Below, in pieces: positions 11,890 through 52,000 of a DNA stretch of 64,000 nt. A model generated the notes under the pieces. That model did not search any database and was not told the DNA's origin. It saw only the letters and a program-made list of their open reading frames with translations. Every line of letters begins with the position of its first letter. The first letter of the stretch is position 1. Source of the DNA: Meghimatium bilineatum (lineage: Eukaryota; Mollusca; Gastropoda; Stylommatophora; Philomycidae); contig CM067306.1 in NCBI GenBank assembly GCA_034231615.1, positions 60,059,057 through 60,123,056 of the forward strand, given 5' to 3'. The position numbers and the translations under genes were made by a program.

Positions 11890-12378
11890 CAAATCAATCA
11901 ATCAATAAAACCCATAACCCTTCAGGGTCGTAGGGGTACCACATTGGAAGCTTCAGCACACAGAGTCCTCCAGCGAATTCTATCCTCAGAGATGCGGATG
12001 AGTGTGGAAATATCTAGCCCTGTCCATTCCTTGATGTTGTCTGTCCATGTCTTTATTTGTCCTCCTTTGCTTCTTCCACCCTCGACAGTTCCCTGCAGTA
12101 TTGTTTTTGACAAGGAATCGTGCCTGCATACATGTCCGAACCATGCTAGTTTTCGTCGTTTCACTATTGAAAGCAATGGCTCCTGGATACCTGCACACAT
12201 CTCTACTTTATTTCTTACGTACACATTGGTCTTATGTTCCCTATAGGAAATTCGTAGAATTCTTCTGTAGCATTTATACTCGAAAGCCTGTAATCTTCTC
12301 TCCATGTCCGCCGTGAGTGTCCAACTCTCACAACCATACAACACAACGGAAAGCACCAGCGACCTATACAGTTTGATT
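11890..12378 (-). mobile_element. LINE-D, 5'-truncated, with exact target-site duplication
   Basis: A 489-bp insert with the C-terminal ORF end open (YGCESWTLTADMERRLQAFE, then WFGHVCRHDSLSKTILQGT, ending EASNVVPLRP) and a (TTGA)n-type 3' tail. The 11-bp flank gggtttctgat at 11879-11889 and 12379-12389 is an exact target-site duplication. The first residues of the open frame before KLYRSLVL are host flank, not element. Confidence 0.9.
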
Positions 12379-12404
12379 GGGTTTCTGATACTACACAACA
12401 ACTG

Positions 12405-13190
12405 ATGACGCTTCTATACTGATACTACACAACATATGATGACGCTTCTATACTACAGAACAACTTCTGTGATTAATTGTTATACTTTCAGTCAAATATT
12501 GTTCGTGTATAGAGTGGTTTTGTTTTAAGTAATCTCGGGTTTCCTACAACTTGCTGTGCAGCGAAACTTCTGTGGGCTAGAATACCGTTCTGTAAACAGT
12601 GAAACTAGGACAATCCTTGGTATACGCTCTGGTGTCTGTGTTGCTACTCTGCAGATCCAGGTCGTAGCGTCGCTGCTATCGATTCGGTGTAAGCGTAATT
12701 TTAGACGGCAGTGTCCGTTCTCATTCGAAATATCGTGACTTATTTACTTTTGTTCAATTTGTTAATGTTACCTTGCTCATTGCTAGCCTTATAATTTTCT
12801 TTTAGTTCTCTTCACTGAAGTCGCATATATTGTTTTGGCAATCTATTTTACTTCTCTCAAACTTTGAGGTGCGAGGTAGGAGGTGCCTCTCTTGCTAATT
12901 CGCTGACTTATTTGTGACCGGCTATGACACAACTGGTATCCACTGTATACTAATATAGTTTTTCTAGATAATTAGAAAATAATTGTTCTGATTTTCTGAA
13001 TGTGGTTGTCTTGTTTGGTGTTTTTGATAGCTTTTAAGACATATTGCTGAATATTGCTATATATAAAATAGCAATAATCACTGAATATTGCTATATATTG
13101 GGGTATGGACTCTCGATTATTAAATCACAATTCCAAACAATTCAACAAATTAAAGATTTGATAAAAGGGACGTAAGTCAATTAATTATTT
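12405..13190. other. Unassigned intergenic DNA with a local duplication
   Basis: About 100 bp at 12440-12545 resembles 11770-11885 on the other side of the LINE-D insert (shared gtttgttttaagtaatct). Otherwise nothing recognised. Confidence 0.5.
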
Positions 13191-19011: not shown

Positions 19012-22000
19012 GTAAAGTTAGTAATGTAAGCAGCACTGAAATTAGCAGGAACAGTTGCTCTGGGGTGTCAAAAACAATACCTGGGAGGGGGGAGAGTGCC
19101 ACAACAGAAAAAAATGTGTTTATTCAGAGGGTATGTGTGAGCTTGAACAAGGCAGCATAATTTCTAGTATCACCACTGAATGTAGGCCAGGGTAAATATA
19201 GCTTGAAAGTAATGAGAAGTGTGAGCTTGACCAAGGCACCAAATTCCTAGTATAAGCACTGAATGTAGGCCAGGGTAAATATAGCTTGAAAGTAACGAGA
19301 AGTGTGAGCTTGACCAAGGCACCAAATTCCTAGTATAAGCACCGAATGTAGTCCAGAGTAAATATAGCTTGAAAATAATAGACAAAATGAAATTAAGAAA
19401 TCAGGAGAAGAATCGATAGAAGACTATGCACAGAATACATTAAGAAACAACAAATGAAATGGTTTGGACACCTTATGAGAATTAACCATAACCAACAAGA
19501 AGACATAACAAAAGAAGATTTGGATACAAGATCAGAGGAAGACATAGAAGAAGATGGATAGATAACATCAAGACAACACTGAACAAATACAGATTCAACG
19601 CAGCTAAGGCGACACATCTAGCCTTGGATAGACAACTAAAGCTCCCAGTCACCACCCCTACGCTTAACGACAAGTGTGGATATTCTGACCATCATCCATC
19701 TGGGTTCCACTGTGTGATCTTTCATTGGATTTTGTTTGATCTTTCATTGGATGTTGTGTGACCTTTCATTCGATGTTGTGTGACCTTTCATTGGATGTTG
19801 TGTGATCTCTCATTGGATGTTGTGTGATCTCTCATTGGATGTTGTGTGACCTTTCATTGGATGTTGTGTGACCTTTCATTGGATGTTGTGTGACCTTTCA
19901 TTGGATGTTGTGTGACCTTTCATTCGATGTTGTGTGATCTTTCATTGGATGTTGTGTGACCTTTCATTGGATGTTGTGATCTTTCATTGGATGCTGTGTG
20001 ATCTTTCATTGGATGCTGTGTGATCTTTCATTGGATGTTGTGTGATCTCTCATTGGATGTTGTGTGATCTTTCATTGGATGTTGTGTGATCTTTCATTGG
20101 ATGTTGTATGATCTTTCATTGGATGTTGTGTGATCTTTCATTGGATGTTGTATGATCTTTCAGTGGATGTTATGTGATCTTTTCATCCCCAAAGAAGCCA
20201 TATAATTTATATCTTCTCATGGTGGACATTTTTTATCCATTGATTGCATATATGACAGTATTTAGGTTAGTAGCCTACTCCATAATAAGAGGCTGGCCTT
20301 GAAGGGGACAGGTTGAGAGCAAATGGAAGATAAGAAAACAGGAGACAAGCGAGCAGTGTTTCTGTCACACAAACAAACATAAATTTTGAGATATTTCAGT
20401 CATTTCTCTTGTTTATTTTGATAGTTCTCAACTCCACAATTCTCTTATTTGAAGCTGAGAGCTATCTAGCATGTTGTTCGTCCATCACAAGTGATGATGA
20501 CCATTTGTTACATTCACTATTGAAAATTCAATTTGAGTTATGTCCTTGATTATGAGTTCGTAGATGGCTAATGAGCCCTATTTGAGCTGTAAATGTCCTT
20601 GGACAGTTCGAACATGGAATGATGACAGTAGACGGATCTTGGTCTATCTGTGACTTTCTAGCTTCTATCCGCTGTTGAGCTGCTGCATTTCTCCTCTTCT
20701 CACAAGATGATGTGCTCTTATTGATTTTAGAACGCCATGTAAATCTATTTTGTGCAAGTTCTTCCCATGTATCATGGTCTATTTCAAAGGCTTTTAGTGA
20801 GTTCTTTAACGAGTCTTTGTAACGCTTCTTTTGGCCACCATGAGATCGTGTGCCCTTTTCCAGCTCACCATAGAGAAGTATCTTTGGCAGACGATGGTCT
20901 GGCATACGCACCAAATGACCTGCCCAACGAATCTGTGTCTGCATCAGGATCGTGTCAATACTGGTGATACCAGCTCTATCAAGGACAGTGGTATCTGGAA
21001 TCTTGTCTTGCCATCTGATGTACATAACTTTTCTGAGACGATTTGTGTGAAAATGATTGAGATTTTTCACATGACGTCTATACACAGTCCATGTTTCACT
21101 AGCGTATAACAGCACTGGAAGTACCACTGTTCTGTAAACTTCCAGCTTAGTCTGTAGGTTAATGCCATTTCTACGCTAAGCATTTGCGTACAATTTGCCG
21201 AAAGTACTGCTTGCCTTGGCGATCCTTGTATACACTTCATCATCAACGTTGGCATTTTGTGATAACGTACTGCCTAGATATGTGAATCTATTCACAACTT
21301 TCAGTGCTACACCATTTACATCTCTGGTACCACAGAGGGTGCATACATATATATTCAGGCAAACATGAAACACATTTCAACAATAAAATAGCAGCATACT
21401 TGTATAGATGATGTGCCATGAAGCTTCTATAAGAAGATAACCTCAATATAATGGCATGTCATCCACTGTTTTCTGTTGCATGGGTGGTTTGTCTAGTGGG
21501 CCATTGGTGAGACCCACAGACGCAACCACATGCGTAAACATCTCTCTTAAACCACATCTACAGTAACTGAAACACTAAAACTTAAAAATTTGTTCTTTTC
21601 AAATATTTTGAAGAAATAGCAAAAAATGGCGGCACTGGAGTTAGGCCTACGCAGTTCAGCTTGAAAAGATGAAAGGTCTAATAAACTACTAGTGCGTATT
21701 TATATCGCTGCGGAATACTAGGAATGTGGACGATTGTTGTTCATGACTACAAATAGCTACCTCGATGTAGACATTTGTTGACAGTGGGCTTCTATCGCTA
21801 GATTACATTTGTAGAATTTGGATTGCTACAGGTTAAAGAAAGTTGGGGGATAAGCTGACACCTGTGAAAAAATCATTGTCACTGCATGTCTTGTCTTGAT
21901 TCTTTCTTTTGTTGTCTGTCTTACTTATTCATCGCTGCCTTACAACCAGGAATCAACCTCTACAAAAAGTCCCAACTGCCTACAAGTTAGCGCAATAATG

Positions 22001-25000: not shown

Positions 25001-28000
25001 AAAGCTATTTCTCCCTATATTTTACTCTGACTATTTCAAAGCTATTTCTCCCTATATTTTACTCTGACTGTTTCAAAGCTATTTCTCCCTATATTTTACT
25101 CTGACTATTTCAAAGCTATTTCTTCCTATATTTTACTCTGACTATTTCAAAGCTATTTCTCCCTATATTTTACTCTGACTATTTCAAAGCTATTTCTTCC
25201 TATATTTTACTCTGACTATTTCAAAGCTATTTCTTCCTATATTTTACTCTATTTCAAAGCTATTTCTCCCTATATTTTACTCTGACTATTTCAAAGCTAT
25301 TTCTCCCTATATTTTACTCTGACTGTTTCAAAGCTATTTCTCCCTATATTTTACTCTGACTGTTTCAAAGCTATTTCTCCCTATATTTTACTCTGACTGT
25401 TTCAAAGCTATTTCTCCCTATATTTTACTCTGACTATTTCAAAGCTATTTCTTCCTATATTTTACTCTGACTATTTCAAAGCTATTTCTCCCTATATTTT
25501 ACTCTGACTATTTCAAATCTATTTCTCCCTATATTTTACTCTGACTATTTCAAAGCTACTTCTCCCTATATTTTACTCTGACTATTTCAGTTCCTTCCCT
25601 CTACATTTTCCTCTGTCTTATATGTTACTCTACATTTTCCTCTGTCTTATATGTTACTCTACATTTTCATGTCTTATATGTTACTCTACATTTTCCTCTG
25701 TCTTATATGTTACTCTACATTTTCATCTGTCTTATATGTTACTCTACATTTTCATCTGTCTTATATGTTACTCTACATTTTCCTCTGTCTTATATGTTAC
25801 TTCTCTACATTTTCCTCTGGTGAAATTCTAAGTTATTTCTTTTATTTTCCTCTTATCTTTCTGTTACCTTCCTCTCATAATGTCCTTCGTGCGTTTATAA
25901 TCTTAGATACATGAAGACTTGGAAGTCAAGTTACCCCCTGCTCAAGGAAATGATGTTGTATCTGCTGCCACAGAGCTCCTCGATGTCCTTGATGACTTCC
26001 ATGATATTGATGAAGGAGAAGAGCTGAAGGAGGTCTTAGGAAACCCTAATTTCAGGGTAACAGTTTCATATTAATCTTACACATGAATGGTTGTCTTCTA
26101 ATTTCAGGATTATAGCTTCTAATTTCAGGATTATAGCTTCTAATTTCAGGATTATAGCTTGCAAAGCAAATGAATATTTTAACATAAAGATAAAAACACA
26201 GAAAAAAACTGGTATTGTCAATCACAAAAAAACAGCAGAAAGAAACACTACTTTTTTCATTGATAATCAACAACTTACACAGGTGAAAGAATTTACTTAC
26301 CTTCCTAGGCTGATCACATCATTCTAGCCTGGTCACAACATGCCCCGGTCACATCATAACATCATAGGCTGGTCACATCATCCCCTGGTCACAACATCCT
26401 AGCCTGGTCACAACAATCTAGCCTGGTCCCAACATCCTAGCCTGGTCACAACATCCTAGCCTGGTCACAACATCCTAGCCTGGTCACAACATTCTAGCCT
26501 GGTCACAACATCCTAGCCTGGTCACAACATCCTAGCCTGGTCACAACATCCTAGCCTGGTCACAACATTCTAGCCTGGTCCCAACATCCTAGCCTGGTCA
26601 CAACATTCTAGCCTGGTCACAGCATGCCCCGGTCACATCATCCCCTGATCATAACATCCTAGACTGGTCACATCATCTGTATGCTAGATGAACATCGTCT
26701 AAAGAGACTATTCTATGGTGGACTGTGTGTAGGTAAGTGCTCAAGAGGAGGCCAGAAGAAATGCTTCATGTACTACTTGACAACATCTCTCAAGAACTGC
26801 AGGATTGACTCAAATTTTTGGTAAACACAGTTCTTGGTCGTCCAGACTGGAACAATCAGATAAGAGAGGGCATCAACATTTTTTAACAGTATAGAATATT
26901 AATCTATTCAAAAGAATTGACCCCGCCGAAAACGGATGTGTTTGGCCATTGACGCAAATAAATCTGGTTATGATTTTAGTCTAGCTCTAATGTATCAATC
27001 TTGTATATCTAATGTATCAATCTTGTATATCTAATGTATCAATCTTGTATATCTAATGTATCAATCTTGTATATCTAATGTATCAATCTTGTATATCTAA
27101 TGTATCAATCTTGTATATCTAATGTATCAATCTTGTATATCTAATGTATCAATCTTGTATATCTAATGTATCAATCTTGTATATCTAATGTAACAATCTT
27201 GTATATCTAATGTAACAATCTTGTATATCTAATGTATCAATCTTGTATATCTAATGTATCAATCTTGTATATCTAATGTAACAATCTTGTATATCTAATG
27301 TAACAATCTTGTATATCTAATGTAACAATCTTGTATATCTAATGTAACAATCTTGTATATCTAATGTAACAATCTTGTATATCTAATGTATCAATCTTGT
27401 ATATCTAATGTAACAATCTTGTATATCTAATGTAACAATCTTGTATATCTAATGTATCAATCTTGTATATCTAATGTATCAATCTTGTATATCTAATGTA
27501 TCAATCTTGTATATCTAATGTAACAATCTTGTATATCTAATGTAACAATCTTGTATATCTAATGTAACAATCTTGTATATCTAATGTATCAATCTTGTAT
27601 ATCTAATGTAACAATCTTGTGTATCTAATGTATCAATCTTGTATATCTAATGTATCAATCTTGTATATCTAATGTATCAATCTTGTATATCTAATGTATC
27701 AATCTTGTATATCTAATGTATCAATCTTGTATATCTAATGTAACAATCTTGTATATCTAATGTAACAATCTTGTATATCTAATGTATCAATCTTGTATAT
27801 CTAATGTATCAATCTTGTATATCTAATGTAACAATCTTGTATATCTAATGTAACAATCTTGTATATCTAATGTAACAATCTTGTATATCTAATGTAACAA
27901 TCTTGTATATCTAATGTAACAATCTTGTATATCTAATGTATCAATCTTGTATATCTAATGTAACAATCTTGTATATCTAATGTAACAATCTTGTATATCT

Positions 28001-31000
28001 AATGTATCAATCTTGTATATCTAATGTATCAATCTTGTATATCTAATGTATCAATCTTGTATATCTAATGTAACAATCTTGTATATCTAATGTAACAATC
28101 TTGTATATCTAATGTAACAATCTTGTATATCTAATGTATCAATCTTGTATATCTAATGTAACAATCTTGTGTATCTAATGTATCAATCTTGTATATCTAA
28201 TGTATCAATCTTGTATATCTAATGTAACAATCTTGTATATCTAATGTAACAATCTTGTATATCTAATGTATCAATCTTGTATATCTAATGTATCAATCTT
28301 GTATATCTAATGTATCTATCTTGTATATCTTCTATAGGCTCTATTAGTTGCACATGATGATATTACAAACAAAAATTTTGAAGGTGAAATCGATAGAACT
28401 CAGATGATTACAAAGGGTCCACAGCTACTTGGGCCTCTGCCTCCCGTGTTCAATGATACACAGGAACAAGTTCGTTATGTAAACATTCGGAAGTCACAGA
28501 CTGAGCCATTGGTGAGTATATGTTAATTGTGTACACATATAATATATTTAAATAATAATAATATTTGTTTATGTTGAAATTCTGGCAAGTCTCCTCTTGA
28601 CAGTCCTTCTCATGGCTTCATCAAATCGGAGTACTGGCATTCACAGAGATATTTATTGCAGCGAAACTAATTTAGTTAGCACCTTGTGTCCTTGAGCCCT
28701 TTTTAGGATTATCAGTCATTTTCAGGGCTTCTACTGTACTCAGGATTGCTTCTTGGATATTTGGATGGTTGACATTTTTCCTCCGATGTTAGAACTTTTT
28801 TATTTCTTGATTGCTGCTACTGTTGATGCATCACTCAGCAGGTTGATGTCTCTTGCCTGTTTTTGGAGGAGAGGGGGGGGGGTACCTGTTCATTTTGTTA
28901 GTTCCAGGTTATCTTCCATTTTGATATCTTGATTCCTAAACGTAAACTAGTGACAGCTGAAATGGCATGCTTACGCATAATCCTAGGAATATTGCTAAGA
29001 GACAGAATGAGAAATGAGGACATGAGACAAAGAACTGGCACCACCCCAATCATGGAGTATATTAAGAGGCAACAGATCAAATGGTTTGCACACATCAGCA
29101 GACTACCACCAGACAGCATACTACAGCAAGTTATGCTACACAGATACAGTGAAGGCAGACCTCGAAAACGATGAACCACCGAAATAAAAGAGGCGACAAA
29201 TTCCACAATATACTCAGCACACACGAGGGCCATCTCCAGATAACTCTTCTACTCCTGACGCTGAAAGACAATAAATGGTTTAGCTAATAGATAGATAGAT
29301 GCCCTTTATCTTGCCTATGACCTCCTCTCTGACTGAGGACAACAAATGACATGTCACATAGAGAGAGAGACTTCCTCTCAGCTCTAATGATCTTCTATGC
29401 AGCCTAAGCTTCCTTTGCATGCCTTGTCTTCCTCTTTATGAAACCCTCTGCATATTGCTAGTAGTTTTCCTCAGATTCTGCCTCCTTTTTCTACACTTTC
29501 CTCTATATTTCTTACCATTGTGTATTCTATATTTCTGTCACTTTCTTTGGCATTATATTTATCTTTGCCACCCTCTGTCGTCTTAGTCCCATGTTTCGAT
29601 TTTAGTTATCATACAGTCCAGCCAGTCTCAATGTGCCAGCGTGGTCTGGTCTTAAAATAGATTTGTATGGTGACAGATTCACTGCGTGCATACAGCGAAG
29701 AATGGGTGTTGGTGGGTGCCTTGAGAGTGGTTTTGGGATTTTGTTAGTTGTGAGAGCAATACATTGTGGAGGTATCCCAGTGTTCATTTTTTATTTTGTT
29801 TTGATTTTTCTCCTTCCCTTTTCTTCCCTTTACTCTCTCTATTCTGTTCTTGCCATATGTATTTCTTTTTACCATTTTTTTCTTTCTCTCATTTTATCTC
29901 CCTTAACGTCTTCTTTAGCTCTTCTCTTACATCATGATTCTCTGTATGTAATATTCATTTCTTGTTGTTTGTTTCTGTTGATGTCGTTAGCTTGTTTTGT
30001 GTTTTACTTCAACACTTCTCTAACACTGAGAATTTGTCCCATTATGCTCCAATTTTATCATATCAGATTCTAACCGTAGAAAAATAGTGAAGATCATATC
30101 TCTTGTAATGCAGTTACCGTGACCTCCGGATTATTAAACCTTTACCTGTTAGATAGTATAGATATTCCCTATTTTGTACAGAATTGACTCAGGTGTTATT
30201 CAACATACGCCTGTTGACTTTTATTGTTTACCTTTGTTGACGTACTCTTTGTGTAGAATCTTTGGAGTAATTACAGAATTTTAGGGTGGCCCTTCTGGAT
30301 GTTGACAGGTATGCATGTGTGAATTTTTTGTGTGTAAAGCAGTTATAAAAATATATGATAAATCCCCTGCATGAAATTAACAATTATAACCATGGAGAGT
30401 CAGTAACAGAGGCTAGTCACAACCAACAATATGGAGAGTCAGTAACAGAGGCTAGTCACAACCAACAATATGGAGAGTCAGTAACAGAGGCTAGTCACAA
30501 CCAACAATATGGAGAGTCAGTAACAGAGGCTAGTCACAACCAACAATATGGAGAGTCAGTAACAGAGGCTAGTCACAACCAACAATATGGAGAGTCAGTA
30601 ACAGAGGCTGGTCACAACCAACAATATGGAGAGTCATTAACAGAGGCTAGTCACAACCAACAGTATGGAGAGTCAGTAACAGAGGCTAGTCACAACCAAC
30701 AATATGGAGAGTCAGTAACATAGGCTAGTCACAACCAACAATATGGAGAGTCAGTAACAGAGGCTAGTCACAACCAACAATATGGAGAGTCAGTAACAGA
30801 GGCTAGTCACAACCAACAATATGGAGAGTCAGTAACAGAGGCTGGTCACAACCAACAATATGGAGAGTCATTAACAGAGGCTAGTCACAACCAACAGTAT
30901 GGAGAGTCAGTAACAGAGGCTGGTCACAACCAAATATATGGAGTCTGTAATAGACTAATCACAAACACCAATATGGAGAGTCAGTAACAGAGTTTGGTCA

Positions 31001-34000
31001 CAACCAACAATATGGAGAGTCAGTAACAGAGGCTAGTCACAACCAACAATATGGAGAGTCAGTAACAGAGGCTAGTTACAACCAACAATATGGAGAGTCA
31101 GTAACAGAGGCTGGTCACAACCAACAATATTGAGTCAGTAATGTAGACTTAATTACAGTCAATTATGTAAAATTTGCATGTGATGTGATTTAAATTCAAG
31201 CACACTTAAAGATTGTATAAAATTCTCTAATTTTATCCCCCTTTGTTTGTTTATCCCTCATTGTTTGTTTATCCCCCTTTGTTTGTTTTCCCAGGGAATA
31301 ACAGTCAAGCTGGATGAGATGAATGACCTTCAAGTGGCCAGGATTTTACAAGGCAGTATTGTGGATAAGCAAGGTATGATATTTCATGAACCGTATTATG
31401 TGGGCACATATTTTCTGTACACTAATGAGTTGTAGAAATCCTCTGGATGCTTGAATCAGGGTTATGTTTGACCAGCATGTTAGATTTGGTGCATCAGATA
31501 ATATCAAATTTTGTCTCCACAACAAAGTTTGACTGCAATGGATCTCCAATGATTTTTTGTCCTTTGTCATATTTGTAAGCTTTACCATTGTTGTAAACTT
31601 TGCCATAGTTGTAACTGTTACCATAGTTGTAAACTTTGCCATAGTTGTAAACTTTGCCATAGTTGTAACTGTTACCATAGTTGTAAACTTTGCCATAGTT
31701 GTAACTTTTACCATAGTTGTAACTTTTACCATAGTTGTAAATTTTCCTTGTTTCATTCATTGGGAAATTATTTGTGAAAGAATTTAGCACAACTAGGATT
31801 GATTACTGAGAACAGTGTAGATGATAAAGGGTTAATGTAATCTGTTTATTCCGTTGTAGTACGAATATGGATGTTTCATGTTTGTGGTCCTGAGAATACT
31901 TCAATACGTGTATGGGATGTTCATTGTTGTTGTAATAGTCTACGTCTCAATTGGTCTGTTCTCAGTGACTTGAGTACACAGTTTGAATGTCTTGACAAAA
32001 TCTCTACTTTTTTAGGGGATGTGGTTAGTCATGTACGGAAAAACCCATTTACTCGAGTTGCAAGGTGATTCGGTGCCACTATTATGGACCTGGTTCAGTT
32101 CCCGTTAGTTTAAAAATTCTGTTTATTTCTGGATGTTTCCCTCCCCATTTATAACTTTGTTATATGTATGTCGTTTGTTCAGCATCTGTTAATTTTCCCT
32201 TCTAGTGCAGTCTTCAACAAAGTGTCATGTTTCTTTTGTATGCCCAATATACAGTTTGTGCCAAATTCAATCATTTAAGTGCCATTACTGAGTGGCATAG
32301 TTGATTATGTTTCTCCACAGCTGTTTGCCTCTTGTGTTGTTAATACGTTCAGTTGATGACATTCTCTGGTGGCACAGTGACAACCCATCCAGCAAATTCT
32401 CTGTTTGTCTCCCTCTAACTCTTCTTCCCTTGATCTTACCGGTTGTTACTAAATGTTCAAGTTTTGCTCTTTTCATCATATGCCCTAAAAATCTTGACAG
32501 TCTGCTTTTAATTTTATAATAATTTGTATTTTTACTCTAACATCTCAGAAGATGTCTACATTATTATTTTTTTTGGTTGTTCAACGAATTTTCATCAAAA
32601 ATCACATCTCAGTATCCTCCAGCTCATTTAAAGCTTTTTTTGTTTACTGTCCATGCTTCACATCCATAGAGAAGAATTCGTTCGATATGACATTCTAGCT
32701 GTATGAATAAAATACATCTGACTAGGGCAAGCATATTTCCAGTAGCAATTTGTACTGATGCCCAATCCTAGGAATATTGCTAGGAGACAGAGTGAGAAAT
32801 TAGGACATTAGACAAAGAACCGGCACTGCCCCAATCTTGGAGTATATTAAGAACCAACAGATGAAATGGTTTGCACACATCAGCAGACTACTACCAGACA
32901 GCATACCACAGCAAGCTATACTACACAGAAACAGTGAAGGCCAACCTTGAAAATGATGGACCACCGAAATAAAAGAGGCGACAAATTCCACAATATAATC
33001 AACACACACGAGGGCCATTTCCAGAGAACTCTTCTACCCCTGACGCTGAAAGGCAACAAAGGGTTAAGCGAATAGATAGATAGAATTTATGGCTGTTAAG
33101 CATGGACACTTAAGAAATCAGTGACAAAGAATAGCTGCCTTCAAAATGATATGAAGAATTTTGAGAATACAATTAGCAGCAAAAAAGACAAATCAAGAAG
33201 AATATTAAGAATGATTCTTAGAGGGTTAACTTTTAAATGGCATAATAAGAAAGCTGAGATGTTTCAGCCATATAAAGAGACATGACAGCATGGAAAATGT
33301 AATAATGGAAGGTGTGGGGCTACTGGTAATAGGGTGAGGTGCCACTCAAGACTGAGACATCTTAGAGTGTTTTAAAATGCCCCTCACTGCAGCAGGGCAT
33401 ATAAACATAAGGTGTTCAGAATAAAGAGAAATACATTATGAAAAGAACATGTCACATGAAAAATAAATAAACTTTCCAACGAGGCTAACTCCTTGAAGTG
33501 AATATGAGGCTTAGGCAAGCCAAGAAACTGGAAACGAAATTGTAAATTGGTCAGGCTATCCTATACATCGAGCAGGACAACAATCATGCCAAAGCAAGCA
33601 CATGTACCGAAGTCTGTGATTCCAGGTTGAGAGGTGCACCAACAACCATGATGTCATATTTGGCCTTTTGCGTCTTGCAGATGGTCATTACGCAGAAAGA
33701 AGTAATCCTTTCAGTATTTTCTCAGGAATGGGGACTTTTTTCAAGCGATCATGTCATGATAATGGTATGCAATACCAATAAAAAACATGTCTTCACAGTA
33801 ATAACAAAAAACTAAACAATATACACACAAGCTATGCTTCAAGCATTCATTATTTTACTAGTCAGTTGTACTCTTAGGGAAGAACTGGAAATATTTTTGT
33901 ACATAGCAATGACCCAACAAAAAAAAGCACAGATAAAAAATCTATGGTAAGGGGTAAACAGAAATTTACAAACTTAAAACTATTAAGAATCTATATTTTT

Positions 34001-37000
34001 CCAATGGCATCATATGGTTGTGAGACATTTATGTTTGTATCTTCCTCTGTTTTCCTCCATCTTTTTGTGTCATGTTTCTCCTAAACATACACCACCAAGA
34101 TGCAACATAATAATTAACGACCCAAAATTAGCACCCAAAAGTTGAAAAGGTGAAATATCTTGGCACCCTGTTAACATCAGAAGGTAGATGCTCAAGTGAG
34201 ATAAAGAGCCAAACAGCACAAGCCAAATCAGCATTCCAAAAATGAGAACCATTTTGTTCACAATTTTTGGAAGACTCAATGCAGACCCAAATTCGAGTAC
34301 TGAGATGTTATATCGAACCAATTCTTTTTTATGGATGTGAAACATGGACTGTTAAAAAAAATAAAAATTCTAAGCAAATTAGAGGCTACAGAAATGTGGT
34401 TTCGGAGAAGAATGATGAAAATACCATGGACAGCTAAGAAAACTAATGCAGAGGTTCTCATTGATGCTGGTGTAAAAAGCTCAATCATATCAAACAATAG
34501 GGGCAGACAGTCAAGGTTTCTAGGGCATGTGCTGAGAAGAACACAGCTTGAACACTTAGTAACCACTGGAAAGATCAAGGGGAGAAGAGATAGGGGATGA
34601 CAAAGAGAAAAGTTACTAGATGGACTTGTGTTGTGGCACAGTAGAAGCTCACCAACCGAGCTTATTGACAACACAAGAGACAAAGAGTCGTGGAGAAATT
34701 GATCGCCTACGCCATTCGGCATGACACTTGATTGATTGATTTCTCCTAAATGACATGTGTATAGTCATGCCTTTATTTCAAAATAAAGGCATGACTATAC
34801 AGATATCATTTAGGATTATACACACGTGCATTAAAAGTGATAGCGAAGATATACACCACTTTTGGAATTAACAGATGAGAAATGTTTTCTTTTGTTGGCC
34901 TATTGGATTATACTGAAGCAAATAAGCCAAAGGTAGGACTTAATATCTTTGCCTAATTGTTCTTAATATCTACCCACAGGAATGCTTCATGTTGGAGATA
35001 TCATCCGTGAAGTAAATGGGATGCCTGTTGCTACCCCAGAGATGATGATGGAGCTAATCATTGAATCCGATCCTGATATCACTCTGAAGATTATCCCATC
35101 CTTCCAACATTTTAGCAAGTCAGAGCCGGTAAGTGATAATGTAAATCAATGGTTCCTAAACTTTAGCAAGTCAGAGTCAGTAAGTGATAATGTAAAACAA
35201 TGGTTCCTAAACTTTAGCAAGTCAGAGTCAGTAAGTGATAATGTAAAACAATGGTTCCTAAACTTTAGCAAGTCAGAGTCAGTAAGTGATAATGTAAAAC
35301 AATGGTTCCCAAACTTTAGCAAGTCAGAGTCAGTAAGTGTTAATGTAGAATAGTGATTCACAAACATTTCCTGCTTATGTTCGCATAGACATTTTGCAAA
35401 GGTCTTATGATCTCTCTCCTTCCCTACCTGATGCAAAGAAAATGATTTGCTATTTACATCAGTGTAAGATTTTAATAAGTATTTCATCAAATTAATTGTT
35501 GTTAGTCCCATCGAGGCAGATCCTTGCCATTGGGCGTTAAGCCAATAGAGGCTGAAACCTAAGACTGGCTGCACTCTCCTATAATCGAGCAACACCACAG
35601 TCTGGGTGCTAGAAAGTGCAGGAGCTTAAGACTGAAGGAACCAGTCAAGAGATGCACCACAGCAATCAGGATGCCATGCACAAATGCAATAACAATATGC
35701 TTCTATCTCTCAGTTATAGATATAGTCATATTTTAAGTGAACAAAAAAAAAACTGGTTATAAAAATATTTTATGTTTTGAGGCATCCAGCATCCATATTG
35801 TACTCGTGATATGATTGAATCTATTAGTAGCGCCTGAAAATGCAGCAATAGTTGAATAGCGATGCCCTGTACATAATATTTAAAAGAATATTAAAAGGGT
35901 AGGAAGGTTGGCTTCTAAACACCATACCATGTTACGAAAAAGCTAGGTTTTTTCAGTCACATTAACCGTACTTATTTGATCTTACGAGTTCTGTAGGCGT
36001 CTAAACGCAGACATCATTACGTTTCCAGGGCCTGTAGGAATCTCCAGTCACCTCCGTTACTATGCCCCGATTCATCAGTACAGAATCACATGAAGTTAAG
36101 ATCATATGGCGTAGAATTCTAGTCACACAAAGCTAGGAATACATCACAGCCGAAAGATAAAATTCCTTTACACATTACGATTGTAAGAGTGAGAAAGCTG
36201 GTAGATTTTGACAATGAATTTCTGGAACAACTTTGTCCTTTTTTGACGCTATATTCTACCATCAAATGTAATACAGCGTAAAATGGTATGTGCTCATCGT
36301 GGAAAGTAATATCTACATGTTTTAATTGTTTTTGTGTTTTAGTTGTTATATTATAAGAATGTTTGGTTATTCATTGAATAACACAAAAACAATATGTTTC
36401 AGGGTGCCACATGTCGGCATGGAAAATAATTACATTGTATGTCTGTCTAGACCTAGTTTTGGGTGGATGGACATTGCATGGGATTTCTTCATGTTTTATT
36501 AGTTTTTTTCAGTCCATATTATATTAGTTTAAAGATGAAATAACATGTATACAATAGGAATAGGTATTTATGAGGATTGCATCAATGTTGCCACACATTG
36601 CTCAAGTATTAGGGTCATCAAAAATTGTATTTGCGATTTAAAAAAATGACATTTTGTGATTTCCCCCCCCCCCCCCCCCCAATTTTCAACTTTACAACTT
36701 GCTCACTACTGTCATATCACACATACAATAAAAGAAAAAAACAATTATGTGTATTATTCACTCCTTTGCTTACATGTGCAAAAATTGTTTTTTTATATCT
36801 TTACAAACAAAATCATATTTATTAAACACTCACCAAAAATGTATGCACATTGTCAACAAACAAAAAAACCACAGAATCTGGGCTCTGTGGAGAAATTGCT
36901 CATTTTTAATCTGGAGCCCTAGAGGTTAAAAGACATGACAGCATAGAAAGTGTTATTAGTGGGAATGATAGAAGGCAACAGGGATAAAGGCTGCCCAAGA

Positions 37001-40000
37001 CGTCATTGGACAAACTACATTCTGGAATGCCTGCATATGTCCCTAAAAGAGGTGGGACAGCTTGCTGAAGACCATGGAGAATTCAAGAGATCCATAGGGA
37101 GGACTACGTTCTGGAAAGAATATGTCACCCGATGAATAATAATAATAGTTAAAATAATAATAATTGTCAACAAGTAGCCAAACAGTTGAGCTTTTATGCG
37201 TAAAATTTGTTGTGACGCTGACTCAACTTACTTTTGACCATCACTGTAATATGCTATAGAACCATAATCACAACAAAACCAAGTTAGTGTGACTCAAATA
37301 ACCAACAGATACTCAAACTTGGTGTTGTGATGATGGTTGTGTAGTGAACTCACTTTTATTAACAAGGAACCAGCTAGTGATGTGAGTATATAGAAGAATA
37401 GGGAGAACATCATGGAAAGAGAAGAAAACAAATAAAGTGATACTAAAAACACTTAACATGAAGAAAGAATTACTAAGAGAAATAAAGATCAGAAAAATAA
37501 AATACTTTGGACACATTAAAAGACATGACACCTTATTGAAGACCTTACTTGAGGGTAAAGTCAAAGGGAAGTGAGAAAGAGGTAGACAGAGATACAAGTG
37601 GGAGAGTAACATTACAAGATGGATAGGTTTCAGTCTAGCAGAGTGCACCTCCGAGACAGGAGATGTTGGAGATACGTTGCAGCCAACCTTTGTTGCGGAG
37701 ACGGCACTTAATGAGGATGATGTTGAACCAGTTTGGTTTTTTTTTTTTTAAATTTATATATTATTATATTTATTATAAAACATTTACTTTTGTATTTCAG
37801 ATATTCATGAAAGCACATTTTAGTTGGGATCCAATGAAGGACCGCCTACTACCGTGTAAAGAAGCGGGGCTTCCATTCACTGATAGTGACATCTTAGAGA
37901 TTGTCAGCAGTGATGACACTAACTGGTGGCAGGTAGGTGGAGTTTGGAAATTTGAAATTAAATTATTGTTATGTTTAAATATAAATTCACTCTTTTATTT
38001 TTTGGGAAAATTTGATCTATCATCTGTTTATGATTCGTGAATCTTTAATGTTGGGATCTGTAAATGGGTCTTTGTGTATTGTCACGGTCAGAGGAGCAGA
38101 TAATATTATGACCTTCCAGTCATGTGCTAAGAATGATTAATGTATTTGTGATGAAGAAGATATCTTTCAACCGAGGAAATTCAAGAAGGAAGCCAGAGGG
38201 TAAATGAAAAATTCCTGAGTCTAAGTATGATTAGGGTTAGTCAAGTGCGGAAAATCTTGTGTAATAGAGTTGCTAGGCGATTTGGTGCCGTTGAACGTAC
38301 TGGTTTAATTCCCGTTAGACTCAAGAATTTTTCAACCGAGGATAAAAGTCCAGTTTGGTTATATCAAGTCATATCACGGAGTGATACTTGATATGTTTTT
38401 TTAGATCCACAGACAAATTTATCTGGTAGGGGCACATATTTGTGTGTTGTAAATCTAGTGTGTAGAACTTATTGATGAGCTTAGGGTGAACTGCTTCTTT
38501 TTCTTTTCTTTTTTTGTACGTGTCTACATCTATTTTTTTCATTGCTTCCTTCTCTATGCCTGCATTCCGCTATTTTCATTTCTTCCATGCCTCATCTCTT
38601 TCTTTTCTTTCATGCCTTCATTTCTTCCTCCTTTACGCCCATATCTTACTTTTAATTTCTTCCTTCTTTCACCTTTAGCCCTCTGCATTAAAATTGCACT
38701 ATTTCCCTCTGCCACTTCTTTCTATTTTGCACTCTACATGTTATTTATTAATGGAATTTGGAAAATGCTATAATCGTTTTGTTTTTGGTGCTTTTTGTAC
38801 AATTGTTGTTTATGGAAATAAAGGAATGGTTGCTGAATGTAGTTGGGTAAAGATCATGAGCCCATGGACAGCTGAATCAACAACCAACAGAGTGTAGTGA
38901 TGTAAGATTTGCTGGTTTATGTGTGATATATGAGTTATTATTGATGATGGGAAAAACCCACAAACATAAGTGACTCATCTATTCTTGTTCGATATAATAT
39001 AATAAATCCATAAACCATCAGGGTGGTAGGAGTGTTTCTTCTTCTTTCGTTCACTTGAAACATGTCTATATCTGTAATTCTGTCTCCTTAATAAAACTCA
39101 CTGTCTTTTGTAGTTCATACAGTGTCCCATAGAGTTTTGATTCCAGTGTTGCCAATATGTCTGCCTCAGCGTTTCATGCTCAGAACACTCTTGAAGTATA
39201 TGTTTGGCACTCTGTGCTGCATGTACACATGGCCGTGTTGCCAATCTTGAACTTTGTATACATGTGACTGCGGAGTCGGTTGTGTCCTGTTCTGAGACGT
39301 AGAATTATAACTTGTTCTGGTCTGTTCATAATATGATAGTCATCTTGTGTTGGTGTTTGTGGCTTTCTTATTGACTTGATCATCTGTTTTTTCTGATGGT
39401 AGGTGATTGGTATATCTGGTTGGTCTTCGGCAGCACCTTCCTTAGCCAGTTGGTCTGCTTTTTCATTTCCTGGTATTCCACAGTGAGAGGGTATCCACTG
39501 CATGGTTACCCTATACTGGTAAGACAATTCGCTAAGTAGTTTTTTCAAGTCTGTTAGTTTTCCAGACTGGAGAGCTTGAAGCACTGACCTTGCATCTGTC
39601 AGGAATACCACAGGCTGTAGGTCAGAGTTGGAGTTCAGCAGTTTTTTAGCTGCCACACTAATTGCCTGGATTTCTGCATCATAATTATGTAGGAGTGTTT
39701 GGTACAGAAAGATCTCCATGCATCTCTAATCTCTACCATCCTGATGAGTTTAGAAACTTCACACCAGTTCTATTCCTTAATATTATCCAGCCATGTCTTC
39801 TTATACCCTCCACTGTACCTTCAAGAACATCTTTTGTCATCGAGGAATGTTATTGAACTTAGAACTCATACCTATTGTCTGAATGTGACAGTTCAGTGGG
39901 CTTGTTTTAATACAGTCTTGTGTCAAAACTTTCTCAGAAATTCCCACAATGAAATGACCACAGAAAAACACAGCTGTTATGGCATGCCATTTTACAGGAA

Positions 40001-43000: not shown

Positions 43001-46000
43001 AACATACAGATAGACAACATAGGAGTAAAACAAGTAACAGAGTTCAAATATCTCGGTAGTATTTTCATAGAAAATGGAAGCCTTGATAGAGAGATAGAGA
43101 CGAGATGTCAAAAGGCAAATGCAGTAACATACCAACTATCACCACTACTTCTACACCCCAAGATCGAGATGGAAGTTAATAGACAAATAATTTACAGTAT
43201 ATTCCTACCAACACTGTGTTACCAGTGCCAAACCTGGTCTCTCTCATCTTCACATTACAGAAAGATAGTGAAATGTGAGATAAAATGCTTGAGGAGAGCC
43301 GCAGTGGTCACCAGGCTTGTTAGATTACAAAATGAAGATATCGGGAAAGAATAGGTATAGCACCGTGCACAGAAAACATAGAAAGGCAGTAGATTAATTG
43401 GTTTGGCCACATTATGAGAATGCATCACCACAAGTTGCTTGTACAGGCATATAACCAAATGAGATCAGGGTACAAATCCAGAGGAAGACCATGGAAAAGA
43501 TGGATAGAAAACGTCAGGGACATCTTGAACAAACATGGTCACAGTATAGCAGAGGCGATACATCTGGCCTTGAAACACAAGCTCAAACTCTAATCACCCC
43601 TACGCTTAACGGCAAGAGTGGATAACAAACCACCTGGGGAAAGACAACAGACAATAAATTTATATAATTATATATCAAATGACATATTCTTTTCAGAACA
43701 TTGTCCTCATAATGGAAGTACGTAATTTTTTTATCCAGACAAGTAACTTGTTGGTCTCCTGAGCACTCTTAATTTTTCTATGAGCAGTGTGTCTCGAACA
43801 CATCAAAAGACAACAGGTCAAGTGATTTTCACATGCTTTCAGACTACAAACAGACAGCATGCCATTGATGGCCATGACACAGACATCACGGCTATAAAGC
43901 CAGAGGCAGACCATGTAAAAGATGGACCACAGAAATCAAAGAAGCCACAGGAATAAGCTTACAAACAGGACACAAGAAGACCGTCTCTAGAGAACTCTTC
44001 TACCCCTGACACTGCAAGGCAAACAAGGGCTACAGCGTATAGATAGAAGTAACTTGTTTTTTATCCTGACAAGTAAACCATTTTTATCCTGACAAGTAAA
44101 TCATTTTTTATCCTGACAAGTAAACCATTTTTATCCTGACATGTAAACCATTTTTTATCCAGACAAGTAAATCATTTTTTATCCCGACAAGTAAACCATT
44201 TTTATCCAGACAATTAAATCATTTTTTATCCAGACAATTAAATCATTTTTTATCCAGACAAGTAAATCATTATTTATCCAGACAATTAAATCATTTTTTA
44301 TCCAGACAATTAAATCATTTCTTATCCTGACTAGTAACTCTTGTTTTATAAAATATTATTGATTTACTATGTGGGAGAATTCATTGTAATTTCAGATACA
44401 TCCAGAGCTCCAAGAAACAAGGAGGTTGATGGCCAAGGCTATTACTTCACCGACAGAGAGACCATTGAAAAAGATATCCTGGACAACAAATATGTGGAAT
44501 TTGGGGAGTTCAATGGAAACCTTTATGGAACAAGAGTGGATTCATGCTGGGATGTGGTCAAATCTGGGAAAATGTGTGTCCTAGATGTTAGCCCTGTGGT
44601 AAGTCCTAGCAAATATTTTGTGTGACATGTTCTGACATGTTTTGTGTGACAGGTCCTGACAAATATTTTGTGTGACACATCCTGACAAATATTTTGTGTG
44701 ACAGGTTGATAAATATTTTGTGATATATCCTGACAAATATTTTGTATTCCTGCTGATACAATGTGTCCTAGATGTTAGCCCAGTGGTAAGTCCTAGCAAA
44801 TATTTTGTTTGACAGGTCCTGACAAATATTTTGTATACCTGCTGAAACATTGTGCTAGATGTTAGCTCTTGTTTAAGTCCTGACAAATATTTTGTGTGTA
44901 TGCTGAGACCATTAGGAAGAGGGCATTTACCCAACTTTTAGCATGCTTCCTAGAACTAAATGACTGGTAAGTCCTGACAAATATTTTATGTACATGCTGA
45001 GACAATTAGGTGTCCTAGATTTGGTTCTAGTAACGAAAGATTACTAGAGAAGTTTCTTTTATCATCTGTTTTTAAACTTTCATATTGATCTTGGGATGTA
45101 TCAATCTTTCTCCAATTAATGCTATACACTTCATGAGGATGGTCTAGTTTGTTTATTATATTTATTAGTTTTCACTGAATTCTCTCAGTAAACATGGAAA
45201 TGACCCATTTTAGGGGTAAAGGGTGTGCTTATGGGGAGTTTACCCTTAAAAGGATAAGAAGGGTTATGGTTTTAAAGTGTTCCAGATTGGCAACACTGTT
45301 AAATTGGTTCATGTTTTCGGTGAGACTGATAAAAAAACTAAATTTATTATTCAATATTTCTGTTGTGTATATTTCTTAGCACAGAGTAAACATGCTGCTA
45401 AAAAAAGACAGAACACACAGATGTCAAATTCTGACCATTACATGTCCCAAATGTGGCAAAACTAGATAAAATAAGAAATTACAATATCAGAAGAAGAGTA
45501 GGAATAATGCCTTCTATTGAATATATAAAACGTCAGCAGATAAAGTGATTTGGTCAATTAGTCTTCTTCTTCTTCTGCGTTCGTTCTCAAACTCCTGCAG
45601 ATTTGCAGGATGTAGTCCGGAGAACGGAATGCGTTGTGTCATGGTTTACAGCACTGCTGAGATATCTGCACTTTTCAGCCTGACACATCCGACTTCAGCA
45701 TGGCTTTGGGCCACTGACCCTATATTGAATGGGACAGCCAACTCCATCCCATAACCTCCTTAGTCTCCTTTTACAACATGGTGGAAGGTAAACAGTGTTG
45801 CTATTCTTCCCTTTCTGGCCCCGGCAACACACGGGCGGGTCAATTAGTGAGAATAGACCCAAGCCAAATTCCTTTGAGAGCTTATAACAAATGATCATCT
45901 GGATACAGAGCCAAGGGTAGACTCAGAGAGAGATTGATAGATAACATCACAACAACCCTACACAGACTTGGCACGACTCAAGCATCACATCTGGCCTTGA

Positions 46001-49000: not shown

Positions 49001-52000
49001 ATCAACCTGTATGTATTCTGTGCAAAGTAAATTCTTGGTAAATTTATGTTTTCTTGTATTCAGCTAAATGTGTACATTTAATTTGATTTATTGTATGAGT
49101 ATACGGGTTCCGCTACTTTAATGAAACTATTATGTATACGTGTAATGTTTATGAAATACCAATCGAAATATAATATATAGGTCAAGGTATAGATCATAGG
49201 GAAGGTAATGTGATGGAAAATTATAGTAGCGGTCAGTGGATACTTCTCAGACTATACATGTTCCTTATGTGTTCTGTTGGGAGTGGATGGGCGTGTTCAG
49301 CAGGTGGAGTTTAGGTTAGGTTTAGTTAGGTGGCAGGTGCTTGGTTGATGGAATTTAGTATTGTACTTAATACTTAAGTAGCTTTAAGTCCTCTTGTGAT
49401 GGCAATATTCCACAGATGTGCAGAATATGAGATGGCATCATTTTTCTATCTGTAGCAGCTTTGACATACTCAAGGGTGCTACATACTTGATGAGTCTACC
49501 TTTAACATCGTGTCATCTGGGTGGGCTAAAAACTAGAATGCAGAATATAAATTATTAACAAGAAGTCAGTATATTGAAAAGTGTGACTTATTGAACTATA
49601 TTTTAGAAATGAAATACAGTTTTGATTTGTTTGTTCTCAATTTAACTTTTTGCATTTCTTCTTTAATTCAGGGTGGAGCTTCAGTTGTGGAGATAAAAAG
49701 TGTAAGTTTTACATATTTTCAATATTCAATGTTTTAATTAATAATAGAAAACAAAGAATAGACTTGGTTTCCTGTTCATTCATTATTATTAGTGACTCCT
49801 GTTCACTCGTTATTATTAGTTTGAAATGAAAATTATGCATGTGTTTCAAAGTCACCGAAGTTAGGGTTCCAGGACTCCTGCTCTGGGGAGATAAGGGATG
49901 GCACTATCACATGTGAACAAGTATGGTATACTGCACTATTCAGGTAGTTTCTGGTTAGTCATAGACTAGGCATTTAAAGCACTTATAGAAAAACCATGTA
50001 CTGTGATGCTGGTTCATAACTCACTGTAGCTTTACCTTACATCAAGAAAAAATTATCATCAAACAGCAAAACAAGTTCGTAAATATGAAAAAGACAAAAA
50101 GAATGGCAACTGACATAACTAAATGAAGACCCAAAATTAATATTGAGAAGTGCAATTTAGAAGTGACACATTTTGATTATTTAGGAACTAATATAAACAA
50201 TTGGGATGCGCAGTTGAGATTAAGAGAAGAATATGTGGCAACATATGGATATGAAACATGGACTCTAAATAAAACAGTTGTCAAGAGAATAACATCATCT
50301 GAATTAAAGTGCTATAGAAGAGTTCTGAAAATACCATGGACAACAAGGAAACAAACCAGGAGGTGTTAAGAACAATTATGTCCAGGAAGGCTGGCTTCTG
50401 AACACTGTATTAAAGAAAAAGCTAGTTTTTTGGGTCACATTAAGAGGCATGAGTGTTACTGGAGGGGATGATAGAAAGCAACAATGGCACAGGTCACCGG
50501 AGACACCGTTGGACACAAAACATTCAAGAATTCCTGCGCATATCACTAACAGAGGCAGGACAACTTGCTCAAGACCGCTGAGATTTCAAGAGATTCATAG
50601 GGAAGACTACGTTGTGGAAACAATATATCACCTGATGATGATGAAGACAAAAATGAACATAATTTTTAGTGATCATAAAAAACTTTTGAATCTACAGGGA
50701 AATTATATAGGAAATCCTTGAGATGTGGAATAGATAGGGATTAGAACAAATTTTTGATTGGATAGTGTATATAAATATTATGTGTTAGTTACATCTAGTC
50801 CTATAAATTATATCTTGTTTTGAATAATAACTAACCACATGACCCTTAGAGCACATGACTTCTATTTGTAGAACATTGGAAGCTTTTTTTTTTTGATTTA
50901 TTTTGCTAAGATCCATATTCTATTTGAATTTGGCCATGGTCAATCCCTGGCTGTGACCTTTGCGTAGTTCAGAGTTCATGTTTTCTCTGCGTGTTTACAT
51001 TGTGGAATTATGTAGGAATTTTTTTAAACAAAATTTGCGGAGTTTTGACACAATTTGTTCACAATGAAGGTTATTGTTCCTACATACACTGATGATGACA
51101 GCCATAGTTACTATGGAAATATGCATGATGTAGGTAATTTTCATACCAAACATAATGTGGGATGCAACATCAAAGTTCCTTGTTAGATGGATTCAATATT
51201 TCGGACAACAAGAAGGAAATTTGTGGTACTATATGTGACATTGCAAATTTTGTTGGAGTGATGTAGTTTTTCAAGCAGGGTTTGAGAATTTTGTAGAAAA
51301 CCTGTACATAATATTGATGAGATTGCCACACATTACAAATACGAGTACTTTAGCATCATTACGACATGGAGTTTTAATAATTTGCAGCCAATTAAGCATA
51401 CTTGTATGTAACAAGTTACTTGCACAGAGCAAGTAAGACAAGACACATTCTGGACATCTGTAACTGTTAGTGAAATAAAACGTTTTTTTTAATGATTAAT
51501 ATTATGATGGGACTGCGTATTATGCTTGAGTATGTCATGTATTGGAGTAGAGATGACTGGTTCAGGTTTTGGAAATATCAGCCTGTCTGAGAAAAATATA
51601 TCTCAATATTTTCATCTCAATATGACTCTGTGCTACCCAGCACCCCCAAGGGAAAAATATTTGTCCCACATTATTTTGAGTTTGACAGTTTAATTTTTAA
51701 AAATATATTAAATTATCTTTGATATAATTTCATGTGAAAGTTTACATTTTTATGTTGATTTCTGCCAAGTCTGAGTGTGATATGATGAGAAGTTTGAAAG
51801 AAAATGCATTTTTAACATCATCATATTGACAATTTAGAGGAGCTGTGCCTCTTGCCTTAGTGATGGGGGGGAATGACAATAGAGAGATTTTATAGTGGTG
51901 AAAAGGGCTAACCAATTGAGCATGGAAATTGTCAGCATACAGATTTGACTAATATTAATTATACTACTACTATAAGGTTGTAAGATGTGAACCTGCAGTG

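Follow-up and report, generated by a model that had tools for sequence, protein, structure and literature searches.

A minisatellite with a 51-nt unit lies across the exon 6/intron 6 boundary of a MAGUK gene in the window (the whole stretch of 64,000 nt of Meghimatium bilineatum DNA analysed here), and its units carry five GTAAGT donors that all remain in frame with exon 7. The reading favoured here, with a probability of about two in three, is that the array is neutral, that splicing would take place mainly at donor 1, and that isoforms longer by multiples of 17 residues (+17n) may be produced at a low level. It is built on the observed anatomy, reading frame, gene identity, divergence of the copies and ancestral linker length.

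In this reading a young minisatellite would have arisen when the junction of exon 6 and intron 6 was duplicated in tandem, and would have grown to about 4.6 copies, its growth copying the last codons of exon 6 together with the 5' splice site. U1 would bind mainly donor 1, the sole donor with G at position −1, to give the ancestral linker, and donors 2–5 would be weaker sites, perhaps used at a low level to give in-frame +17n isoforms. These may be tolerated, because the insert would be placed in a loop that directly precedes the SH3 domain. The reading requires neither selection nor regulation; the array is one of many in a genome of which about one-fifth is tandem repeats.

Anatomy of the gene and of the exon 6 array

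Judged by its predicted protein, the gene belongs to the PALS2/MPP6 (varicose-type) MAGUKs. The PDZ, SH3_2 and Guanylate_kin entries of Pfam all scored over their cut-offs in the 397-aa model, which was the range covered by the domain search, and the PDZ-SH3-GK order is present with segments of MPP2/6 type. The closest among the homologues listed came from land snails, with 91% (Candidula) and 90% (Bradybaena) over the 397-aa model; where the sources name the nearest homologues, the names are MPP6, MPP2 or PALS2. Nine exons with mutually consistent phases were brought to 14 by additions made by eye and with tblastn, exons 1–4 among them. Exons 2–4, upstream of the PDZ domain, where two L27 domains would be expected in a gene of this type, align to the N-terminal part of homologue P0003, which carries PF02828. 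A 30-nt match at 49672–49701 of the window, followed by GTAAGT, resembles a microexon in the guanylate kinase region and is absent from the 397-aa query. Fragments at 20528–21175 (−), 11922–12413 (−) and 34200–34720 (+) resemble LINE open reading frames; one ends in a C2H2-like CSNCPRTF...H...H motif.

The sequence-only reading had placed five GTAAGT donors, in 51-nt steps, after the exon that ends the PDZ domain, which it numbered 6. All five were found at these places (Table 1), and in the present model of 14 exons this exon is likewise number 6. The exon 6 frame is open past every donor before it closes at a TAG, and exon 7 starts in phase 0, by which each donor keeps the frame. With the frame open and exon 7 in this phase, donors 2–5 would add 17, 34, 51 and 68 residues, as had been proposed.

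Table 1. Coordinates in the window of exon 6, its repeat units and the exons and array related to them (energies in kcal/mol).
Feature	Position	Strand	Basis or score
Exon 6 (second half of PDZ), ancestral form ending at donor 1	34980..35128	+	Frame, gene model, homologue alignment
Repeat unit 1, with the CCG that ends the exon, donor 1 (GT 35129) and intron start	35102..35152	+	U1 duplex −10.1
Repeat unit 2, donor 2 (GT 35180)	35153..35203	+	U1 duplex −6.4
Repeat unit 3, donor 3 (GT 35231), identical to unit 2	35204..35254	+	U1 duplex −6.4
Repeat unit 4, donor 4 (GT 35282), equal to unit 2 over 51 nt, TRF phase aside	35255..35305	+	U1 duplex −6.4
Repeat unit 5, donor 5 (GT 35333), frame closes at TAG 35351–35353	35306..35356	+	U1 duplex −7.5
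Exon 7 (SH3 start), phase-0 acceptor TTTGTATTTCAG	37801..37932	+	Gene model
Exon 11 (guanylate kinase part), 3' end and donor copied downstream	44396..44598	+	Gene model, copy search
Second array, with copy of exon 11 end (44762–44785) and donor (GT 44786), out of frame	44728..44895	+	TRF, copy search

TRF reported a single array at 35111–35347 (period 51, 4.6 copies, 97% matches, a size of about 240 bp), which spans the end of exon 6 at 35128 and thus overlaps the exon-intron boundary. Exon-derived letters and a consensus 5' splice site are present in each of the units. Units 2–4 show 0/51 differences among them; compared with unit 2, unit 1 has 6 differences in 51 positions, and so has unit 5. 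Donor 1 reads CCG/GTAAGT and donors 2–5 read TCA/GTAAGT. A 102-nt array query, in a search that passes over very common words, gave three matches in the 1.61-Gb genome, all within the exon 6 array. Since units 2–4 are identical and this search, at its sensitivity, turned up no other place in the genome with the array, it is evidently a young, local and recent expansion.

The heptamer AACATTT occurs in the exon at 35106–35112 and in the intron at 35363–35369, and an origin by slippage between these microhomologous copies might be guessed. Such slippage, however, predicts a first unit of 53 bp and not of 51 bp, and a further loss of 2 nt would be needed. A mini-exon internal to the unit (TTTAG, 13 nt, GTAAGT) was set aside, as its length of 13 nt would not preserve the frame and its pyrimidine tract is poor.

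Donor strength and linker length

Donors were scored by the energy of their duplex with the 5' end of U1. By this pairing donor 1, the only one of the five with G at −1, has an advantage of 2.6–3.7 kcal/mol over donors 2–5. For eleven further donors assumed in this gene (exons 2–5 and 7–13) the energies ran from −4.8 to −12.9 kcal/mol; those of donors 2–5 lie within this range, and donors 2–4 are equal to or stronger than five of the eleven (exons 2, 3, 5, 10 and 13). That the copied donors fall in the gene's own range is the chief reason not to expect splicing at donor 1 exclusively. Where strong 5' splice sites compete close to one another, the choice often falls on the intron-proximal site, as Eperon et al. 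are said to have reported in 1993; by this rule donor 5 would be favoured.

The PDZ-SH3 segment, taken to start at the Pro that follows the last PDZ strand and to extend to the KAHF motif of SH3, was measured in 121 alignment rows made up of the query and the best 120 of 2292 homologues. It has 18 residues in 110 rows, including the query and each named mollusc listed, and 20–39 residues in the remaining 11, which belong to ten named insects and one unnamed source (P0106). No longer form occurs among the named molluscs in the 120 homologues listed, and neither a relative bearing the insert nor a protein of M. bilineatum itself is present among these best 120 of 2292. In the slug's own C7 paralogue the segment also has 18 residues; the matching exon end there reads GGACCCT/GTAAGT, and the nearest array lies 87 bp past the end of the match. 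The longer segments of the insect homologues, together with the CASK linker considered below, show that a longer PDZ-SH3 linker occurs in the wider family.

At the boundary formed by donor 1 the relatives have sequences of equal length (PSFQHISKSEP, PSFQHFNKSEP, etc.). The CCG of unit 1 encodes proline, matching the Pro that precedes the boundary with exon 7 (SEP in P0001 and P0002, PNP in P0003). Since this Pro is present in close relatives, the CCG of unit 1 is ancestral and the TCA of units 2–5 derived. By this comparison the exon originally ended at donor 1.

An AlphaFold2 model of the Bradybaena homologue, of modest confidence (mean pLDDT 76, pTM 0.56), has an 11-residue loop without secondary structure at residues 226–236, followed by the first SH3 strand at 237–241. 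On this model the insert would fall immediately before the SH3 domain.

Copied splice sites elsewhere and chance estimates

The end of exon 11 and its donor have also been copied within an array. The copy, with the codons for CVLDVSPV, sits +187 nt downstream behind a TGA, and shows the outcome of donor copying when the frame is not kept. A third, degenerate copy of this exon end was seen near 44850 (window 44599–44895). The acceptors of exons 4 and 5 adjoin minisatellites at distances of 7 and 2 bp (window 26986–28337 and 31232–31294); exon 4 is preceded by 61 copies of a 22-bp unit, and the tract before exon 5 is itself built of 18-bp repeats.

In the C7 paralogue, where arrays fill 42% of 30 kb, the acceptor of exon 4 and the first bases of that exon lie within a 43-bp array of ten copies of CTCCTGCCTGAYAG (L020 1111–1538). 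None of the ten tblastn matches at this locus ends inside an array, and one of them begins in one, at this acceptor. The exon-proximal acceptor is TGACAG and the nine upstream copies are TGATAG; CAG is preferred over TAG at acceptors. The exon 6 and C7 exon 4 arrays are alike in that the ancestral exon edge has a site that departs from its copies toward the stronger signal. Either relaxed copies stand beside a constrained original or the likeness is due to chance, and two cases do not decide.

A second tandem copy of an exon end with its donor was found at 0 of 32 donors outside this gene (10 of the C7 paralogue, 12 of other MAGUK-like loci and 10 of dynein), a small and partly biased sample. 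Captures of an exon end and donor are accordingly uncommon but not unique. The ten dynein exons were taken from 122 matches, and an array reached the exon end in none of them over about 350 nt of covered intron. The MAGUK-like donor positions were picked automatically; at least two were wrong (L021 and L034), and those two were read by eye. At one of the 12 MAGUK-like donors (around position 1683 of L042) a copy of the exon end with its donor, alike at 29 of 31 nt, lies about 1.0 kb downstream, TRF finding no array at this locus. At another (L034, 1739–2139) a 43-bp array of 9.3 copies begins about 20 nt into the intron, and its consensus unit contains GTAAGT.

Tandem repeats are abundant throughout. 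TRF gave 45 merged arrays covering 19.8% of the window, and arrays made up 16.8% of 14 arbitrary genome stretches, one of which is half N; the genome-wide figure published for the species is 19.46% by TRF (PMC10770140). The period is divisible by 3 in 20 of 46 window arrays, and nine random codons of the window, as for the intron-derived stretch, stay open with a probability of 0.59. From these two values, capture of a donor in frame at a phase-0 intron would be expected by chance in about one case in four.

Random 45-mers of the window had a copy in their own neighbourhood scoring at least 15 in 18.8% and at least 13 in 21.4% of 3000 draws, and exon interiors had one scoring at least 15 in 0.6% (n = 666). 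With 18.8% of random 45-mers having a local copy, some splice junctions inside arrays are expected in this window. Seven of 21 real junctions had a nearby intronic copy that outscored all of the 53–59 random window places tried for each, in a test that leaves out a row labelled "ex12 don", which is the stop end, and exons 1, 3 and 13. An enrichment of arrays at splice junctions was dropped, the values of 7/21 (at least 13) and 6/21 (at least 15) against controls of 21.4% and 18.8% coming from too few junctions.

Alternative explanations and known systems

The neutral reading with main use of donor 1 agrees with that donor being ancestral and the strongest by U1 pairing, with the identity of units 2–4, and with the out-of-frame copying of the end of exon 11 and its donor, to which the C7 exon 4 acceptor array is the mirror case. 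Against it, the copied donors are not dead, all five retaining GTAAGT and the frame with U1 energies in the gene's range; the frequent preference for the intron-proximal site points to donor 5; and with 0 of 32 further captures in the small outside sample, such events are not common. The same five in-frame donors would also suit an unlikely alternative, in which several of them are used in ordinary proportions and without regulation to give a constitutive mixture of linker lengths that varies with the repeat copy number of the individual. The longest form of the exon would measure 353 nt, the insertion site is the loop before the first SH3 strand in the modest-confidence Bradybaena model, and the ten named insects and the unnamed homologue do have 20–39-residue segments; the better pairing of donor 1 and the lack of a longer form among the named molluscs listed speak against such a mixture.

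The sequence-only reading had gone further and had seen in the minisatellite a switch of linker length. One part of this stands, namely that a real 5' splice site has been multiplied in frame and that use of donors 2–5 would lengthen the linker by multiples of 17 residues. The switch found no support, given the 18-residue linker in every named mollusc listed, the strength of donor 1, the one-in-four chance of an in-frame outcome and the loss of frame in the exon 11 copy. A regulated switch under selection is improbable also on the grounds that the array is young and confined to this locus in the 102-nt genome search, with no insert-bearing relative among the 120 homologues listed, although frame and donor are kept in 5/5 units and the MAGUK CASK does splice the exons of its PDZ-SH3 linker alternatively (PMC8208546). 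Very improbable is a copy number inflated or collapsed by assembly error: identical units such as 2–4 can be miscounted, but the array measures about 240 bp, units 1 and 5 can be distinguished from the others, and the published assembly is described as made from PacBio HiFi reads (PMC10770140).

It is a speculative and rather improbable extension that the array acts as a molecular ruler tunable by copy number, the number of units in a population setting the possible PALS2 linker lengths (+0, 17, 34, 51 or 68 residues), and that in the genomes of land slugs such arrays may be made out of splice sites time and again. If it were true, a hypervariable minisatellite would act as an inherited control of MAGUK geometry. 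The land-slug cases so far are two exon ends with donors in this gene and, in the C7 paralogue, an acceptor with the start of its exon in ten copies. With five near-identical in-frame 5' splice sites spaced 51 nt apart, in a gene that otherwise has one linker length in all named molluscs listed, the locus offers a clean natural test of spliceosome choice, and it shows how coding variants at splice junctions can come from a genome rich in tandem repeats. If donor 1 alone is used, tandem consensus donors need disturb splicing little.

No land-snail or MAGUK instance of a donor-bearing minisatellite was found, by title and start of abstract, among the open-licence papers listed. The kind is already known from human IFI6, where a minisatellite supplies multiple splice donors; according to a citing paper, the use of two downstream units as donors enables three mRNA species. 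The slug units likewise carry 5' splice sites across an exon-intron boundary; gene, unit and host differ, and several mRNAs are reported for IFI6, whereas the additional mRNAs of the slug are putative. A possible change of PDZ-SH3 linker length by splicing is shared with CASK, where it is established, exons 19/20 (69 and 36 bp) encoding the alternatively spliced linker (PMC8208546); CASK uses cassette exons instead of tandem donors, and the passages on it mention no repeat array. The C. elegans minisatellite CeRep25B is located near alternative splicing regions (PMC4039745) and resembles the present array in its association with potential alternative splicing, but the abstract proposes it as intronic regulatory motifs and mentions no units acting as splice sites in their own right. 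For human duplicated genes it is reported that alternative splicing patterns can result from internal tandem repeats located at exon-intron boundaries (PMC2812944); the cases described there concern novel introns in recent paralogues, and in the slug one donor has been copied within a single gene.
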